A model generated the notes under the pieces. It was not told the DNA's origin, ran no database searches, and saw only the letters and a program-made list of their open reading frames with translations. The position numbers and the translations under genes were made by a program. 64,000 nt of DNA from Paraburkholderia phenazinium (GTDB taxonomy: Bacteria; Pseudomonadota; Gammaproteobacteria; Burkholderiales; Burkholderiaceae): positions 1,364,001 through 1,428,000 of the forward strand of contig NZ_FSRU01000001.1 of NCBI RefSeq assembly GCF_900142845.1. Direction: 5' to 3'. Shown piece by piece: positions 3,251 to 55,982 of this stretch (the stretch's first letter is position 1; each line of letters starts with the position of its first letter).

Positions 3251-4189
3251 ATGACGGAGATGAAAGAAGAATCGCCGAAGGCCATCTTTTACGCGCTCGC
3301 CGCCAACCTCGGGATTGCGGTGTTCAAGTTCGCCGCGGCGACCTTTACGCAGTCCGGCTCGATGTTCGCGGAGGCGATTCACTCCACCGCCGACTGCGGC
3401 AACCAGCTTCTGCTGCTATTCGGCCTGCGTGAGGCCAGGAAGCCGCCTAGCCCGCTGCATCCGATGGGCGCGGGCCGCGAGATCAACTTCTATTCGCTGC
3501 TGGTGGCGCTGCTGCTGTTCTTCGTCGGCGGGGCGTTCTCGGTGTACGAAGGCATACACCGCCTGTTTGCGCGCGAGCCGCTCTCGCATGCGTACGTGGC
3601 GCTGGCCGTGCTGGGTGTCTCTGTGGTGCTCGAGACGTTGTCGCTCATGGGGGCCGTCAGGGAGATTCGCAAGACGCATCCCGACAAGTCCATGTGGCGC
3701 TGGTTTCGCGAAACGCGCGAATCGGATCTGCTGGTGGTGGCGGGCGAAGACATCGCGGCGCTTGCCGGCCTCGCCATCGCTTTCGTCGCAGTGCTGCTGA
3801 CGATGATCACCGGCAACCCGATGTTCGATGCGCTCGGCTCGATCGGCGTCGGCCTGCTGCTGATGGTGATTGCGTGGCTGGTGGCGCGTGAAGTGAAGTC
3901 GATGATCGTCGGCGAATCGGCCGGCCCGGACGTGCGGCGCGCCATCGAAGCGCATTTGCTGGCGCGTGCCGAGATCCGCAGCATCATCAATATGATCACG
4001 CTGCAGTGGGGCCGCGATGTGGTGGTCGCGGTGCAGGCGGAGATGATCGATTATCCCAGCGGCCGCGCGATGGTCGACGCCATCAACATCGTGGAAGCCG
4101 ATTTGCAGGCGACCTTTCCGCAGGTCCGCTGGGTGTTCTTCGAACCGGACGTGCCGCGCGATCAACGCGGCGGGGCGTCATATACCTGA
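3251..4189 (+). CDS. CDF-like cation transporter
   Basis: A 312-residue inner-membrane protein of the cation diffusion facilitator superfamily, which exports divalent metals in exchange for protons. An HSTAD motif sits in the second membrane segment (the HxxxD metal site), and a GED-x-AAL segment lies at the position of the second site. The latter is typical of a divergent CDF branch whose metal is not settled. About six hydrophobic helices are followed by a cytoplasmic C-terminal domain of about 100 residues. The ATG follows the selD stop immediately, so the pair forms an operon. The metal cannot be read from the sequence, and co-expression with selenium metabolism is only suggestive. Confidence 0.85.
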   Translation: MTEMKEESPKAIFYALAANLGIAVFKFAAATFTQSGSMFAEAIHSTADCGNQLLLLFGLREARKPPSPLHPMGAGREINFYSLLVALLLFFVGGAFSVYEGIHRLFAREPLSHAYVALAVLGVSVVLETLSLMGAVREIRKTHPDKSMWRWFRETRESDLLVVAGEDIAALAGLAIAFVAVLLTMITGNPMFDALGSIGVGLLLMVIAWLVAREVKSMIVGESAGPDVRRAIEAHLLARAEIRSIINMITLQWGRDVVVAVQAEMIDYPSGRAMVDAINIVEADLQATFPQVRWVFFEPDVPRDQRGGASYT

Positions 4190-48235: not shown

Positions 48236-49945
48236 TCAAGCCGCGTCCATCATCCGAAATTCCGCGTCGATCGCTTCGCCGTGATCGCGCCAGCGATGGA
48301 ACTGCTCGCGCTTCTGGCGCCCCGAGGCCACGCTCTGCTCGACGGCGTCCACGTTGCCGCGCAACTCGACGAGTTCCGGGAAGAACTGATCTTCGAACCG
48401 AGGCCCGTCGATCAGTTCGAGCAATTCCGCGCGCTGCTTCGTAAAGTTGTCGACCATCTTCGCGATCACCTCGCGGAACGCCCGCTCGCGGTTGGCCTGC
48501 TCCCACGAGTCCCAGATTTCAAGCGCGAGCCCAAGCACCGATAGCATGCCGTTGAGCCCCTTGGCAAGATTGACCGCGCCCCACGGCTTGAACTTCAGCA
48601 ACTTGCCGAGATCGAGCCCGACCACCTTCGCAACACCGAGAACGCCATCGCGCGCGGCCAGTATCGACGTGTTGTTGATCATGCCGCTCTTGACCACGTA
48701 ATCGATGCCCTGTTTGCCGTACACGCGCACGGTGGCGTTGAAGTGGTTGACCTCCGCGTCGAAACCAACGGCCATCTTGCCGACCTCGAACTTCACCGAG
48801 CGCAGTTGCTGGTCGAACGCGTTCTGCAGGTTCGCGCTCAACACCGCGCCGTCCGCGCCCACGTTGCGCTCGAAGAACTCCGAAAACGTCTGCATGGACT
48901 GCTTGTGGGTCTGCAGGATCAGGTCGGTGAAGAACTCGGAGACGAAGCGCCGCAGGCCGATTCGCACGTCGACGATGCGCGCGTCGGCCGTGACCATCTG
49001 TTTCTTCAACTGGTTGCTCATGGTTTCGAGCCGGTCGACTTCCTGGGCAATCTTGTCGTCGTTGTGCACGGCGATCGGCAACTGTTTGCCGAGCACATCG
49101 CGGACGATGCTGCGCTTGGTTTCATCGACGACCGCCGCGACGCCGCCCGCCGCCGATACCTTCTCCGACGTCGCGCGCTGCAGCAGCCCGATGCGCGACA
49201 GCGCGCGGAATCGATCGAGATCCGCCAGCCAGTACTCGGTGCCCATCTCGAACGGGTCGGCAGCCACGGCCACCACCGCGAGCTCGCGCGCCTCGGCGTC
49301 GCTCAGTGCGATCAGGTCGCGCAGGCGGCCGACAACATTCTCCTTCTTGATGTTCAGGCTCTGCGCATATTCGTGTTCGTCCTCGACGTCCGCCACCGCG
49401 TCGAAGCGGCTCAGCACGAATACCGTACGCGGCAGCAGGTTCAGCGTGCGGAACAACCACGTCAGATCGTCGCGGTGACTCTCCTTGATCGGATTGGTCG
49501 GGTCCATCACGTACACGACAAGATGCGCTTCGCTCACATACTTGCGCGTGAGCTCCTTGTATTTTTCGAGCGTGTTGGTTTGCGCGTCGAATTGCTCCTT
49601 GAAGCCGAACAGCCCGGGCGTGTCGATCAGCACGCAGTCCGGGCCGGCCTCGTAGACCGTGACCGCATTCGACGACTCCTGATGGCTGATCTTCATCGTC
49701 GACTTGTCGAGCCGCTCGAGCCACGCGGCCGCAATCGCAGTCTTGCCTTCGGAAAAGCCGCCGATCAGCACGACACGCAGCTTGTCGTCTTCGATGCTGC
49801 GGATCGCGCCGTCGAGCTTCGCCTTGACGTTCGGATCGGCGTCGATCCCGAACGCCTCACCCTGCGCGAGGAACGCCTGAAGTTCATGCAGCACCTTCAA
49901 CGTTCCCGCTTGCCGTTCCTTAAAAGACTCCAGCGTCTGTTCCAT
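48236..49945 (-). CDS. leoA: Dynamin-like GTPase LeoA
   Basis: A 569-residue dynamin-superfamily GTPase, close to the 571 residues of E. coli LeoA. G1 is GGFSEGKT (62-69), G3 DTPGLFG (108-114), and G4 the SRFD at about 179-182. Long helical regions follow, with a hydrophobic, Gly-rich segment around residues 430-475 that could contact membrane. Its ATG overlaps the stop of the larger upstream GTPase by one base (TAATG), so they are made together. LeoBC-LeoA pairs are the Eleos anti-phage system; LeoA was first linked to toxin vesicle release. Assignment rests on size, motifs and pairing. Confidence 0.78.
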   Translation of the reverse strand: MEQTLESFKERQAGTLKVLHELQAFLAQGEAFGIDADPNVKAKLDGAIRSIEDDKLRVVLIGGFSEGKTAIAAAWLERLDKSTMKISHQESSNAVTVYEAGPDCVLIDTPGLFGFKEQFDAQTNTLEKYKELTRKYVSEAHLVVYVMDPTNPIKESHRDDLTWLFRTLNLLPRTVFVLSRFDAVADVEDEHEYAQSLNIKKENVVGRLRDLIALSDAEARELAVVAVAADPFEMGTEYWLADLDRFRALSRIGLLQRATSEKVSAAGGVAAVVDETKRSIVRDVLGKQLPIAVHNDDKIAQEVDRLETMSNQLKKQMVTADARIVDVRIGLRRFVSEFFTDLILQTHKQSMQTFSEFFERNVGADGAVLSANLQNAFDQQLRSVKFEVGKMAVGFDAEVNHFNATVRVYGKQGIDYVVKSGMINNTSILAARDGVLGVAKVVGLDLGKLLKFKPWGAVNLAKGLNGMLSVLGLALEIWDSWEQANRERAFREVIAKMVDNFTKQRAELLELIDGPRFEDQFFPELVELRGNVDAVEQSVASGRQKREQFHRWRDHGEAIDAEFRMMDAA

Positions 49946-52146
49946 TACACCGCCTCTGTTTCGGACATCGTTTTAGACAAATGCGCGAGATTCGCGCAGA
50001 CCCGCAGCAGCGCCGAGTTGACGTGCGCGGCTTGCTGGACCGAGCGCTCCACTTCCGTCGCGATCTCGTCGATACGCGCGGTCACGTTCTCGATCACCTC
50101 GTTGTAGCTTCGCTTCATGGCGTCGCCCATCCCGTCGACGACGCGGTCGAGATTCTCGTTGACGGCTTTGCGCTGCTGCGACTTCTTGTAATCGCTGTCA
50201 AATAGCCCCCAAACCGCCTTCGCAATGCTCACCACGAGCGTCACGCCGCCAATCGCGAGCGTCACCCAGCCCACCGGATTCCACAGCATCATCAGGCCGC
50301 CCGCGAGCGCCGCGACGAGCGGCATGTATTTCACGCCGCTGTCGAAGGTCATGTTCAGTTCGAAGCCGCCTAGCGTGGGCGCGCCGATCGAGCGGTACGC
50401 GTCCTGAAGCTGCTCGACGCGTTGCTGGAAGCGTTCGAGAATATCGCCCACTTCCTGCTGGAAGCGCTCGAGTTGGGCCTTCATCTGCTCCGGCAGCTCG
50501 GCTTCCAGGGTCGCCTGCTCGCCCCGGATCGCGAGCCCTAACGCATGCTTCAGATCGTCGTTGCCGATGCCGTCGTCGATGCGGTTGTAGACGCGCCGGC
50601 GCACGCTCGTCTCGAACGTTCGGATCGCGCCGTCCGCGAGCGTTTGCAGCGCGGGGCCGAGGCTGCGGACTGTCAGTTCGAGCTGCTGGCTGACCAGTGC
50701 CCAATCGCGCTTCAGTTGCGCGGCGAGCGGCGCGACCGTATCGCGCTGGATCAGGGTGATGGTCCCCGTCGCTGCCTGCACCGCGCTGCGCACCTTGTTC
50801 ACGTTGGCGGTGCGGATGCGCGCGTCGCAATCGGTCACCATGCTGCCGGTCAGCCAGTCGACGAACGGCTGGAAGCCCGACTTCGACAGCAGCTCGGCGG
50901 CGCTCGCCTTGGCGAGAAACTTCGCGCGGCTGCGCGCGACGTCCGAGAACGGCACGAGACAGTCGGCCGCCGCGAGAAAGGCCGGTTGCGCGCTCAACGC
51001 AATATGGCGCTGATAACGTTCGCCCAGATGCTCATGCATCGTCTCGTCGAGCACGGCAAGGCTGTCGCGTTCGCCCTGACTCAGCAACTCGCCCTTGTCG
51101 AGCTGGATCGGATTGGTGATGCGTTTGTTGTAGATGGTCCAGACTTCGCTTTGGTCGCCCAGATGCGTGCGAATTTTTTCGAGCGTGCCTTGCCCGTTTT
51201 CGTCGCCGGTCTGCGGCGCGGCGGCCTTGCCGGTCACGTAAAACACGGCGTGCGCGGCCTTTACCGCGCCGAGAATGCTGTCGAGCACGCGCGCTTCCTT
51301 GCCCTCGATGCCCGGCACGTCGAGCAGTTCGAAATGCTGCTGGTTCGCGTCGAACCCGTAGCCGTGCGCATCGAGCGTGTAGTCGGAGCGGCCGGTGCCG
51401 ACGATCTGCCCGTCGGCGAGCGGCGCGAGGCTGTCGAGTGCGGCATGCGCACTCGTTTGCCGGGCTTCGAGCGCCTCATGCGCGGCCTGAGCGCGTTCAC
51501 GCTGCGTGTCGAGCTGTTCGCGTTCGGCCGCATGCGCTGCGCCAAGCGCGAGACGTTGCTGCTCGCCCTGTGCGAGCGCCACTTCTTCCGGTCGCTTGCG
51601 GAACAGATGTATCAGCTTTTGCCAGAACGACGCCGCCTGTTTCTGCGCGACGATCAGGTGCCGCAGGCGGCTCAGTTCCTGTTCGAGAGCATCGCGGTCC
51701 GCATCGAGCTGCGCGCTGCGTTCGACGGCTTGCGCCTGCAGTGCGTCGAGCTGTGCGCGGCTGTCGTCGATCGCTTGCTTCAAAGTCGACAAGGCGGCTT
51801 CGCCAAGGCCGAACTCCGCCTGCTTCGCGCGAAACGCCGCGCGCGCGTCGGCTTTGCTGCGTTCGCCGAGCAGGATGCGCAGCGTTTCGATGATCGTCGA
51901 TTTGCCGGCATTCGTTTCGCCGTAGAACGCGATCGTGAACGTGTCCCAACGCGCGTGACGCTGCAGCGCTTCGATACGCTGCACGAGATCTGCGTGAATC
52001 GGGGCGACGAGATTTTCGACCTGCGCCATCGTTTGCGCGACGCGCGCGTCGGTCGCATCGAGATCGAGCTGCTTCAGCAGATCGTCGATTTCATTCAGTA
52101 CGGCTTGGTGGAGATCGTTCGATGAGGCCCCGGCGGTTGGTCGCAT
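49945..52146 (-). CDS. leoBC: Dynamin-like GTPase LeoBC
   Basis: A 733-residue dynamin-like GTPase. G1 is GETNAGKS (76-83) and G3 DVPGIEG (276-282). Between them a coiled-coil insertion of about 130 residues (118-245) splits the GTPase domain, an unusual layout. A 43-residue hydrophobic stretch at 607-649 (VAALAGGLMMLWNPVGW and VTLAIGGVTLVVSIAKAVW) looks like a membrane paddle, followed by a helical tail. The G4 motif reads YNKR rather than NKxD. The start has no Shine-Dalgarno and an A-rich leader. It forms a two-gene operon with leoA. Confidence 0.75.
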   Translation of the reverse strand: MRPTAGASSNDLHQAVLNEIDDLLKQLDLDATDARVAQTMAQVENLVAPIHADLVQRIEALQRHARWDTFTIAFYGETNAGKSTIIETLRILLGERSKADARAAFRAKQAEFGLGEAALSTLKQAIDDSRAQLDALQAQAVERSAQLDADRDALEQELSRLRHLIVAQKQAASFWQKLIHLFRKRPEEVALAQGEQQRLALGAAHAAEREQLDTQRERAQAAHEALEARQTSAHAALDSLAPLADGQIVGTGRSDYTLDAHGYGFDANQQHFELLDVPGIEGKEARVLDSILGAVKAAHAVFYVTGKAAAPQTGDENGQGTLEKIRTHLGDQSEVWTIYNKRITNPIQLDKGELLSQGERDSLAVLDETMHEHLGERYQRHIALSAQPAFLAAADCLVPFSDVARSRAKFLAKASAAELLSKSGFQPFVDWLTGSMVTDCDARIRTANVNKVRSAVQAATGTITLIQRDTVAPLAAQLKRDWALVSQQLELTVRSLGPALQTLADGAIRTFETSVRRRVYNRIDDGIGNDDLKHALGLAIRGEQATLEAELPEQMKAQLERFQQEVGDILERFQQRVEQLQDAYRSIGAPTLGGFELNMTFDSGVKYMPLVAALAGGLMMLWNPVGWVTLAIGGVTLVVSIAKAVWGLFDSDYKKSQQRKAVNENLDRVVDGMGDAMKRSYNEVIENVTARIDEIATEVERSVQQAAHVNSALLRVCANLAHLSKTMSETEAV

Positions 52147-54331: not shown

Positions 54332-54922
54332 CTAGAACATCGGATGCGCGTCCGGATAGAGCGCCGTTCTCAAGGCGAGTCCACCGAGTACGACAAAGAT
54401 GATGGCAGCCAGAATGTGCACGGCCTTGGTCGGCAAGCGGTCGGCGAACTTGTGCCCGAGATAGATGACCGGCACGTTCGCCAGCATCATGCCCAGCGTC
54501 GTACCCGCGACCACGCCGAAAAATTCGTGGAAGCGCGCGGCAAGCGCGATGGTGACGATCTGCGTCTTGTCGCCCATCTCGGCGAGAAAGAAGGTCACGG
54601 CCGTCGTGCCGAAGACGCCCATTGTGTTCTTGGTTAGCGCTGCATCGGCGTCGTCCAGCTTGTCCGGAATCAGAATCCACACAGCCATTACCGCAAACGA
54701 TGCGACCACGGCCCAGTTCAGGATGCCCGGCCTGAGCACGCTCGCGAGCCACGCTCCCAGCGCACCGGATGCCGCATGGTTGATCAGCGTGGCGGCCAGC
54801 ACACCGAGCACAATGGGAATGGGTTTGCGATACCGCGCAGCCAGTACGAGGGACAGTAGTTGGGTTTTATCGCCGATTTCGGCGAGGCCGACGACACTGG
54901 TCGCAACGAGAAAGGATTGCAT
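54332..54922 (-). CDS. UPF0016/Gdt1-family manganese exporter
   Basis: A 196-residue membrane protein with two repeats, each carrying the family motif: AEIGDKTQ near residue 15 and AEMGDKTQ near residue 115. Gdt1/UPF0016 proteins move Mn2+ (and Ca2+ in eukaryotes); MneA of Vibrio cholerae is a Mn exporter of this family. About six helices. A yybP-ykoY-type Mn riboswitch with a terminator occupies its leader, which fixes manganese as the likely substrate. The start at 54922 opens MQSFLVATSVVGLAE; the frame upstream is the riboswitch region and not coding. Confidence 0.92.
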   Translation of the reverse strand: MQSFLVATSVVGLAEIGDKTQLLSLVLAARYRKPIPIVLGVLAATLINHAASGALGAWLASVLRPGILNWAVVASFAVMAVWILIPDKLDDADAALTKNTMGVFGTTAVTFFLAEMGDKTQIVTIALAARFHEFFGVVAGTTLGMMLANVPVIYLGHKFADRLPTKAVHILAAIIFVVLGGLALRTALYPDAHPMF

Positions 54923-54947
54923 GGGATGTTGTACCCGGGCCGCGCTG

Positions 54948-55003
54948 AAAAAACGCGATGACGCGCATTCCGGCGACCCGGTTAGGTCGGAATGCGAGTC
55001 ATC
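54948..55003 (-). terminator. Riboswitch-controlled intrinsic terminator before the Gdt1-type gene
   Basis: On the minus strand 16-nt arms GATGACTCGCATTCCG (55003-54988) and CGGAATGCGCGTCATC (54972-54957) pair with a single mismatch and are followed by TTTTTT (54953-54948). The 5' arm shares bases with the closing P1 helix of the aptamer, so the two structures exclude each other: aptamer formation should relieve termination. Confidence 0.85.
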
Positions 55004-55111
55004 GGTCTTGCCAGGCATTTCGCTGCGTACGCCATGGCGAGTCTTGCGACTGGCCAAGTATGTTGACGTGCGCCCTCGAACATCGCGTTCGAGGCGGCTA
55101 CTCCCCAATGA
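54999..55111 (-). ncRNA. yybP-ykoY manganese riboswitch (for the Gdt1-type exporter)
   Basis: The minus-strand leader contains the aptamer landmarks in order: GGGGAGTAGCC, then GTCAACATA, then GGCAAGACC. A closing P1 helix is TCATTGG (55111-55105) with CCGATGA (55005-54999), one G-U pair. These are the two conserved loop segments that dock to bind Mn2+ in this class. It is followed at once by a terminator that overlaps P1. Expected logic: Mn2+ stabilises P1, terminator fails, exporter is made. Confidence 0.9.
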
Positions 55112-55120
55112 GCAGGCGCG

Positions 55121-55150
55121 ATTCTATCGCGCGGCCCATTACAAATGCAA
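55121..55150 (-). promoter_or_regulatory. Promoter of the Gdt1-type gene leader
   Basis: On the minus strand TTGCAT (55150-55145), 18-nt spacer, TAGAAT (55126-55121). The expected transcript start is near 55114, right at the aptamer's 5' end. Confidence 0.6.
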
Positions 55151-55204
55151 CCTTCCCGTCTAACCGCTTCCTGCGAAGCCGGGCGCCTTGACGAGCGGAC
55201 GGCA

Positions 55205-55233
55205 TTACATAGGCCTTTCAGTCATGGTATGCT
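55205..55233 (+). promoter_or_regulatory. Promoter of the mntP leader
   Basis: TTACAT (55205-55210), 17-nt spacer, TATGCT (55228-55233). The expected start near 55240 coincides with the 5' end of the aptamer. Confidence 0.6.
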
Positions 55234-55240
55234 CGCCCCT

Positions 55241-55344
55241 GTCTTTGGGGAGTAGCCGGCTTCTACCCAGAAGCGCCTGCATCAACATTCTCGGTCGCGC
55301 AGACCGTGGTGCAGGTAGCCGTTTCGGTTGGCAAGACCATCGAC
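55241..55344 (+). ncRNA. yybP-ykoY manganese riboswitch (for mntP)
   Basis: The plus-strand leader shows GGGGAGTAGCC (from 55247), ATCAACATT (55281-55289) and GGCAAGACC (55330-55338), the same landmarks as the facing copy. The closing helix pairs GTC..TGG (55241-55248) with CCA..GAC (55337-55344), with a small internal loop. A hairpin that shares its 3' strand follows. The gene served is mntP, the standard target of this class in proteobacteria. Confidence 0.9.
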
Positions 55345-55386
55345 ACACCACGCGACCGGTCGGGCGCGGCGGTGTGTCGTGGTTTT
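55341..55386 (+). terminator. Riboswitch-controlled terminator before mntP
   Basis: CGACACACC (55341-55349) and GGTGTGTCG (55371-55379) pair perfectly, with further pairing inside, followed by TGGTTTT. The first four bases of the 5' arm are also the end of the aptamer's P1 helix, so the structures compete. The U-tract is shorter than in the facing copy. Confidence 0.7.
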
Positions 55387-55412
55387 CAGCCCGACCTCGA
55401 GCGCCTACTCTG

Positions 55413-55982
55413 ATGAATCCTGTCGCAACGCTATTCCTGGCTTTTGCCATGTCCACCGACGCCTTTGCAGCCGCTATCGGCAAAGGCGCCACGCTCCATC
55501 GCCCGCATTGGAGCGAAGCCATCAGGACGGGGCTGATCTTCGGCGCGATCGAAGCGCTGACCCCTTTGGCCGGATGGTTCCTCGGCAAGGCCGCCGCCCA
55601 ATACGTCTCCGCATGGGATCACTGGATCGCGTTTGCGCTGCTGTTGGTCCTCGGCGCCCGCATGGTCTTCAACAGCTTTGCCGCTAAAGAAGTCGAGGAG
55701 AGCAGGCCGGCGACCCATTCGTTCTGGTTGCTCGCCTTGACCGGCTTCGCCACGAGTATCGATGCGATGGCGGTTGGCGCGGGCCTCGCCTTTGTCGACG
55801 TCAACATCTATTCGACGGCTGCCGCGATCGGTCTCGCCACTATGGCGATGGTCACTCTCGGCGTCATGCTCGGCCGTGTCATCGGCCACGTCGCGGGCCG
55901 GCGTGCCGAGATGGCGGGCGGCGTCGTGCTGATCGGCATCGGCAGCACCATCCTTGTGGAACATCTGCAGCTATTCGGCTAA
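55413..55982 (+). CDS. mntP: Manganese efflux pump MntP
   Basis: A 189-residue membrane protein, same size as E. coli MntP (188). Two repeats with the conserved acidic sites: [15 protein letters not shown] near residue 12 and [14 protein letters not shown] near residue 115. Six helices. It exports Mn2+ when the metal is in excess. The leader is a Mn riboswitch, which confirms the assignment. The ATG has no clear Shine-Dalgarno, only GAGCG about 11 nt upstream. Confidence 0.96.

Follow-up and report, generated by a model that had tools for sequence, protein, structure and literature searches.

The yybP-ykoY Mn2+ riboswitch is counted among the most widespread bacterial riboswitch classes in the excerpted text of PMC13274385, and its way of controlling exporters in Gram-negative bacteria is unsettled. 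For Vibrio parahaemolyticus, RNA-seq without a drop-off at the Mn riboswitches is described (excerpts of PMC13274385), whereas in Bordetella, where the exporter BP3410 (annotated as a calcium:cation antiporter) is under a Mn-dependent ON switch, a transcript of about 200 nt is reported and premature termination without Mn is argued (extracts of PMC8546581). The Escherichia coli mntP riboswitch is called translational and Rho-linked in PMC11647493. The riboswitch, both exporters treated here and their regulation by Mn2+ are already known. A different kind of relative is offered by the preQ1-II and SAM-II riboswitches, H-type pseudoknot platforms that place a helix at the Shine-Dalgarno (SD) site. 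Among the literature found, no paper links Paraburkholderia with a manganese riboswitch, and no title among the matches listed concerns a divergent pair or the loop-to-start helix described below; the head-to-head arrangement and its decay and exporter swap are likewise absent from that literature, whose coverage excludes the founding papers of the riboswitch, so that an earlier description is possible.

Here, we analysed a stretch of 64 kb from Paraburkholderia phenazinium (the window), in which two exporter genes diverge from a gap of 490 bp bounded exactly by the ATG of gdt1 (54922, minus strand) and the ATG of mntP (55413, plus strand). The gene gdt1 (54332–54922, minus) encodes a UPF0016/MneA-type Mn2+ exporter of 196 aa (PF01169 GDT1, 149.5 bits, cut-off 27) with two E-x-G-D-K-T motifs that are invariant among seven aligned proteins; the family motif is defined as E-x-G-D-(K/R)-(S/T), in one or two copies, in the abstract of PMC7380456. 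The 189-aa product of mntP (55413–55982, plus) matches PF02659 Mntp with 180.5 bits and scores above the cut-off of the NCBIfam equivalog NF008546 (235.6 vs 214). These matches agree with the initial annotation, made from the letters of the sequence, in which the two leaders were assigned to a Gdt1/UPF0016-type gene and to mntP. Its view of the exporters as unrelated holds at the sensitivity used, as remote homology between Gdt1 and MntP went undetected in a comparison of profiles built from seven sequences each (probability 0.6%); both families are, however, filed under the LysE superfamily. Elsewhere in the window, two adjacent long open reading frames of 569 and 733 aa (48236–52146, minus) have P-loop GTPase-like N-termini and by eye look like a dynamin-type pair.

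A cmscan search of the whole window against the Rfam model RF00080 (gathering score 45), covering both strands, returned one match above the gathering score for each gene: 55235–55406 on the plus strand for mntP (73.8 bits, E 2.3e-17) and 55118–54936 on the minus strand for gdt1 (58.9 bits, E 5.6e-13); a search of the 8.5-Mb genome gave these two and no others. Each strand of the gap does carry the landmarks noted earlier in both leaders (GGGGAGTAGCC, TCAACAT and GGCAAGACC), and the loop sequences of the class (GGGGAGUAG, UCAACAU and GGCAAGACC) occur in both leaders in the sequence and in the cmscan alignments. Both leaders are thus supported as yybP-ykoY riboswitches and are candidates for selective Mn2+ binding. 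With other members of the class they share the aptamer landmarks, a score above gathering, exporter genes downstream and an overlap of the aptamer helix P1 with a following hairpin (T); the window differs in having two copies head to head. With the E. coli mntP riboswitch, the locus has the gene family and the aptamer in common, but the E. coli leader (L157) has another platform, as judged by eye, and is the single leader at its locus, not part of a divergent pair.

Contrary to the initial description as twin copies of one riboswitch, the two aptamers of the window are only 65% identical and each falls into the clade of its own gene. A tree of 63 rows sampled from 154, with few columns and long-branch warnings, groups the aptamers by gene family and not by locus (support 99/95 for GDT1, 96/90 for MNTP and 92/81 for the exchanger family discussed below), and together with the low identity it rules out a twin duplication; within a locus, aptamer identity is 0.64–0.70 across 13 loci. 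Because the aptamers sort by gene family, the members of this divergent pair (the divergon) look like gene-plus-riboswitch cassettes rather than a duplicated switch.

Although a strict sigma-70 consensus scan of the region gave no promoter, an alignment of nine divergons, inspected by eye, contains conserved islands directly upstream of both aptamers. On the mntP side, TGnTATGCT (TGnTAAGCT in one) precedes the aptamer in 9/9 divergons; in the window it appears as the putative extended -10 element TGGTATGCT at 55225–55233 (plus), and its TGn is lost in 3/3 aligned remnants from which mntP has gone. On the gdt1 side, GATAGAATC/GATAAAATC likewise precedes the aptamer in all nine, and TTGC, some 18 bp further upstream, is conserved too; here the putative elements are a -10 (TAGAAT, 55121–55126, minus), conserved in the divergon alignment, and a -35-like TTGCAT (55145–55150, minus) at an 18-bp spacing, a weak consensus match whose TTGC part is found in 13/13 aligned rows. 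Given these islands in an otherwise variable spacer, transcription would start at about 55240 on the plus strand and about 55114 on the minus strand, some 127 bp apart. The earlier placement of both starts at the aptamer 5' ends, about 130 bp from each other, is thus plausible, with the 9/9 islands on its side and the empty strict scan against it.

Such closely spaced starts, and the presence of the arrangement in nine genomes, would suit a regulatory role for the head-to-head arrangement itself, through a shared operator or a coupling of the two divergent promoters. Against such an effect, sequence conservation is lacking between the promoter elements, gdt1 retains its leader where mntP has been lost, and 11/11 mntP copies away from gdt1 still have an RF00080 match; by eye, the alignment contains no conserved block besides the promoter elements that could serve as a shared operator. 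We regard this explanation as very improbable.

Each aptamer is followed by a hairpin T and a short U-run. In gdt1, T spans 54957–55003 (minus, arms 55003–54988 and 54972–54957) and is found both by covariation and in the MFE structure, with 98.2% of cells paired and two-sided changes in 8/15 pairs across 37 sequences; six U follow at 54948–54953. The T hairpin of mntP (55341–55379, plus, arms 55341–55349 and 55371–55379) is likewise found by covariation, with 94.5% of cells paired and two-sided changes in 7/9 pairs across 59 sequences, and is followed by four U at 55383–55386. In unconstrained folds, T formed in all five leaders tested (by eye). The 3' strand of P1 overlaps the following hairpin in both leaders, as had been claimed, and in gdt1 the overlapping arm is the 5' arm of T. 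The earlier contrast of six U after a 16-bp stem with four after a 9-bp stem is right about the U-runs, but in the fold the mntP stem is longer than 9 bp, as it is extended by apical pairs and, across a bulge, by CCA (55337–55339) with TGG (55380–55382).

The leaders of the window combine, in sequence and fold, the GC-rich hairpin, U-run and P1 competition of an intrinsic attenuator. A terminator scan returned two sites, one before each U-run, where 0.5 were expected from shuffles; these are short stems of five and six pairs, distinct from T itself. Relatives seldom keep the U-run. TTTT follows the hairpin in 12/42 gdt1 leaders of the window's subtype and in 0/21 of the other gdt1 subtype, in 15/24 mntP leaders of the genus vs 1/38 of other genera, and in 0/28 exchanger leaders. 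Because TTTT is mostly absent in relatives, intrinsic termination, on this comparison, is not the conserved read-out. The proposal that terminators of different strength set different thresholds is left without comparative support, the U-runs being mostly unconserved. Its companion, that both leaders switch transcription, is in keeping with the P1/T overlap but looks incomplete, as a conserved helix before the start codon points to an added post-transcriptional layer.

In this helix, a segment inside T (alpha) pairs with a segment of the tail shortly before the start codon (alpha-prime). In gdt1, alpha (CCGGGTCGC, 54973–54981, minus) pairs with alpha-prime (GCGGCCCGG, 54935–54943, minus), which ends 12 nt before the ATG; in mntP, alpha (GGTCGGGC, 55358–55365, plus) pairs with alpha-prime (GCCCGACC, 55389–55396, plus), which ends 16 nt before the ATG. 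Exchanger leaders have GGTCGGACG/CGTCCGACC in these roles, placed before a possible short leader frame and well upstream of the exchanger ATG. The helix is absent from the RF00080 consensus, in which this stretch is drawn unpaired save for a 7-bp closing helix, all seven pairs of which fail in the gdt1 match. Neither gdt1 nor mntP of the window has a clear SD sequence (54923–54935 and 55397–55412), unlike many relatives, the leaders of which have SD-like bases at the matching place.

Within a gene family, the near-invariance of the helix says little about it. In gdt1, 99.7% of cells are paired and six of the nine pairs never vary (37 sequences); in mntP, 94.7% are paired and a two-sided change from UA to CG occurs in five of 59 sequences. 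For the mntP structure as a whole, 99/500 shuffles reached the observed eight pairs that change on both sides, whereas the number of two-sided cells (90 vs 23.4 when shuffled) and the covariation score were reached by none of the 500. When each leader was tested singly against shuffles, values of 0.05 or below were obtained for 33/39 mntP leaders (39 of 67 could be parsed, and five of the 67 were left out as duplicates), 44/63 gdt1 leaders and 25/27 exchanger leaders. In the other gdt1 subtype, where the helix often has just 5 bp, most leaders fail this test; a local SD hairpin considered for that subtype was inconsistent by eye and was not counted.

Comparison across the phylum is more informative. 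From 67 loci, the best matches listed from draws at class, order and phylum level, 48 platforms were used, after three duplicates, 15 unparsed leaders and one weak stem had been left out. Alpha pairs with its own alpha-prime at a score of 23.7, vs 17.65 (sd 0.49) when partners are exchanged, and none of 5000 permutations was as high; a loop-tail helix with covariation, as in an H-type pseudoknot platform, is hence present across this set, weakly so in the other gdt1 subtype. Kinship among the rows lifts the scores of foreign partners and so counts against the observed excess. A pairing score of at least 18 is reached by 44/48 platforms vs 18.1% of shuffled tails, and at four control positions by only 3, 3, 9 and 10 of the 48; in 23/48 platforms, the own tail beats more than 90% of foreign tails. 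The helix also lies close to the ribosome site: alpha-prime ends a median of 11 nt before the start codon (range 3–58; a start was found in 41/44), SD-like bases follow it directly in 33/44 leaders vs 6.9 (sd 2.1) in shuffles, and the linker measures 6–12 nt in 36/44 (extremes 0 and 22), with TTTT inside it in 3/48 platforms. A loop-to-tail pairing that adjoins the ribosome site is shared with preQ1-II and SAM-II, but here the pairing belongs to the platform and not to the ligand-binding aptamer, and its pseudoknot geometry is putative. The apical stem of T and the alpha/alpha-prime helix partly compete, because alpha is just 54% unpaired in the T fold (45% for random windows), and in some leaders, such as L185 (15 bp, L1 of 1 nt), the full pseudoknot looks sterically impossible. 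The idea that alpha-prime is a switching strand shared with the 3' region of the aptamer was set aside, as the effect was small (11.76 vs 10.90, with 1/5000 permutations as high).

Both genes are most likely switched on by Mn2+, because the aptamer, the competition of P1 with T and the published cases of Bordetella BP3410 (extracts of PMC8546581) and E. coli mntP (PMC11647493) agree; with BP3410, the locus would also share an exporter gene that Mn turns on through its riboswitch. In the model that we favour, each transcript would begin at the 5' strand of P1. Without Mn2+, the 3' strand of P1 would pair into T and, at the U-runs of this locus, transcription would in part stop; on transcripts that pass T, alpha would join alpha-prime just before the start codon or SD, and the resulting pseudoknot of T loop and tail would clamp the start region. 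With Mn2+, the docked aptamer would hold P1 so that T cannot form, which would reduce the clamp to a plain hairpin. The lack of a drop-off in V. parahaemolyticus (excerpts of PMC13274385) would fit the post-transcriptional tier of this scheme, and the transcript of about 200 nt in Bordetella (extracts of PMC8546581) the transcriptional one. On the whole, we hold it to be reasonably probable that the locus contains two independent Mn2+-ON riboswitches in divergent orientation for two different Mn2+ exporters, each combining a transcriptional attenuator with a helix before the start codon that works at translation.

The role and sign that we infer for alpha/alpha-prime could be reversed, if the helix formed only after Mn2+ binding, looped out the 3' arm of T and so blocked a return to T, acting as an ON latch. 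Folds in which P1 is forced, and T is excluded by construction, contain alpha/alpha-prime in 4/5 leaders (by eye), alpha overlaps part of the apical stem of T, and in leaders such as L185 T and the full helix cannot coexist, all of which a latch would accommodate. It would, on the other hand, need neither the close spacing to the SD and start codon nor a linker of 6–12 nt, and leaders without a U-run require an OFF mechanism that acts on full-length RNA. We consider a latch rather unlikely and slightly favour the clamp. At the other extreme, the leaders could be transcriptional attenuators and nothing else, alpha/alpha-prime being a by-product of conserved GC-rich sequence. The U-runs of six and four in the window, the covariation of T in both families, TTTT in 15/24 mntP leaders of the genus and the short leader transcript of Bordetella, for which termination was argued (extracts of PMC8546581), would all be expected of such attenuators; the species-specific pairing that no permutation of partners equalled, the confinement of the helix to its position relative to the controls and the lack of a U-run in most relatives would not, which makes this reading improbable. 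Extending the clamp beyond the locus, we tentatively suggest, as a real possibility that may yet prove wrong, that Pseudomonadota Mn2+ riboswitches share an undescribed second switching element, a pseudoknot clamp between the inside of T and the tail just before the SD or start codon, that would make them translational or dual even where they appear terminator-like; the divergon of the window would then hold two independently evolved versions side by side.

RF00080 matches each of the 144 Paraburkholderia genomes searched at E 0.001, and 141 of them above the cut-off; at E 1e-20, 129 of the 144 contain Gdt1 and 24 contain MntP. By coordinates, mntP forms a divergon with gdt1 in nine of these 24, stands in tandem with it in four and lies elsewhere in 11, either on another contig or, as in G119, which has two contigs with gdt1, at a great distance on one of them. 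The design was rightly called unusual, as 9/144 genomes of the genus have it. In the family, MntP occurs in 65/398 genomes, eight of them in the same genus; of the other 57, 40 were inspected over about 2.5 kb upstream (one locus was shorter), and gdt1 was found there in none of the 40. In the four tandem genomes (L011–L014), a fluoride riboswitch is clustered with gdt1 and mntP, and Pfam matches in L011 add crcB and a CDF cation-efflux gene.

In a gdt1 tree, the nine divergons, four remnant loci and 12 loci without an adjacent mntP form one group of 25 rows, with support of 88/91 at that fork (drawn open) and 98/86 one step out (26 rows). The remnants (L026, L027, L029 and, about 2 kb away, L046) have differing breakpoints, and three of them keep the mntP promoter, without its TGn, and the aptamer start while lacking mntP. 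In L046, a decaying leader is visible as an orphan Mn-riboswitch match (3898–4046, plus, 61 bits) that lies some 2 kb away from gdt1, in a locus where mntP was not found. The differing breakpoints suggest that mntP was lost repeatedly in one gdt1 clade and left broken promoter-aptamer remnants behind. By parsimony on this one tree, the divergon probably arose once, by cassettes meeting head to head, and then went through several losses of mntP.

Two steps out in the gdt1 tree, Paraburkholderia sp. DHOC27 (L044/L075) has an intact 335-aa protein of the Na/Ca-exchanger family (PF01699, 103.7 bits) opposite gdt1, with a second Mn aptamer before it (44.5 bits, just below the cut-off). Other members of the genus (L034–L040 and L117–L136) carry a third lineage of Mn riboswitches, with for instance 111.8 bits in L034, the leaders of which precede a gene of this family (PF01699 in L034 and L075); here, alpha-prime is mostly followed directly by GGAG and a GTG or ATG that may open a short leader frame. 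Bordetella belongs to the Burkholderiales, and BP3410 is perhaps the counterpart of this exchanger leader, not of gdt1 or mntP.

We also looked through 84,980 species genomes for pairs of outward-facing GGGGAGTAGC motifs separated by 91–151 bp, with a pattern scan that misses wider spacings (178 bp in G001) and may omit the genome of the window. It returned 14 species: six Paraburkholderia (one named Burkholderia sp.), four that we take to be Comamonadaceae (L067, L069, L071 and L074) and four others. The latter (L064, L070, L073 and L076) were taken as chance hits, with no RF00080 match at gathering, a test that also misses the TerC loci described next, and with no Mn exporter family among the eight neighbouring frames scanned. 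TerC-family genes stand head to head on both flanks of three Comamonadaceae loci; in the fourth, the left end of which is cut off, the single visible gene is of this family. Their leaders carry GGGGAGTAGC, and two that were examined also have GCAAGACC or a near variant. RF00080 finds none of these leaders even at E 5, and they may form a sub-type of the Mn riboswitch that this Rfam model overlooks.

For Gram-negative exporter control by yybP-ykoY, on which published accounts of absent drop-off and of termination diverge, the covarying helix at the start codon is a concrete and mutable target. The divergon cassettes, their decayed remnants and the swapped exporter illustrate, in turn, how such regulatory modules may be built and lost.
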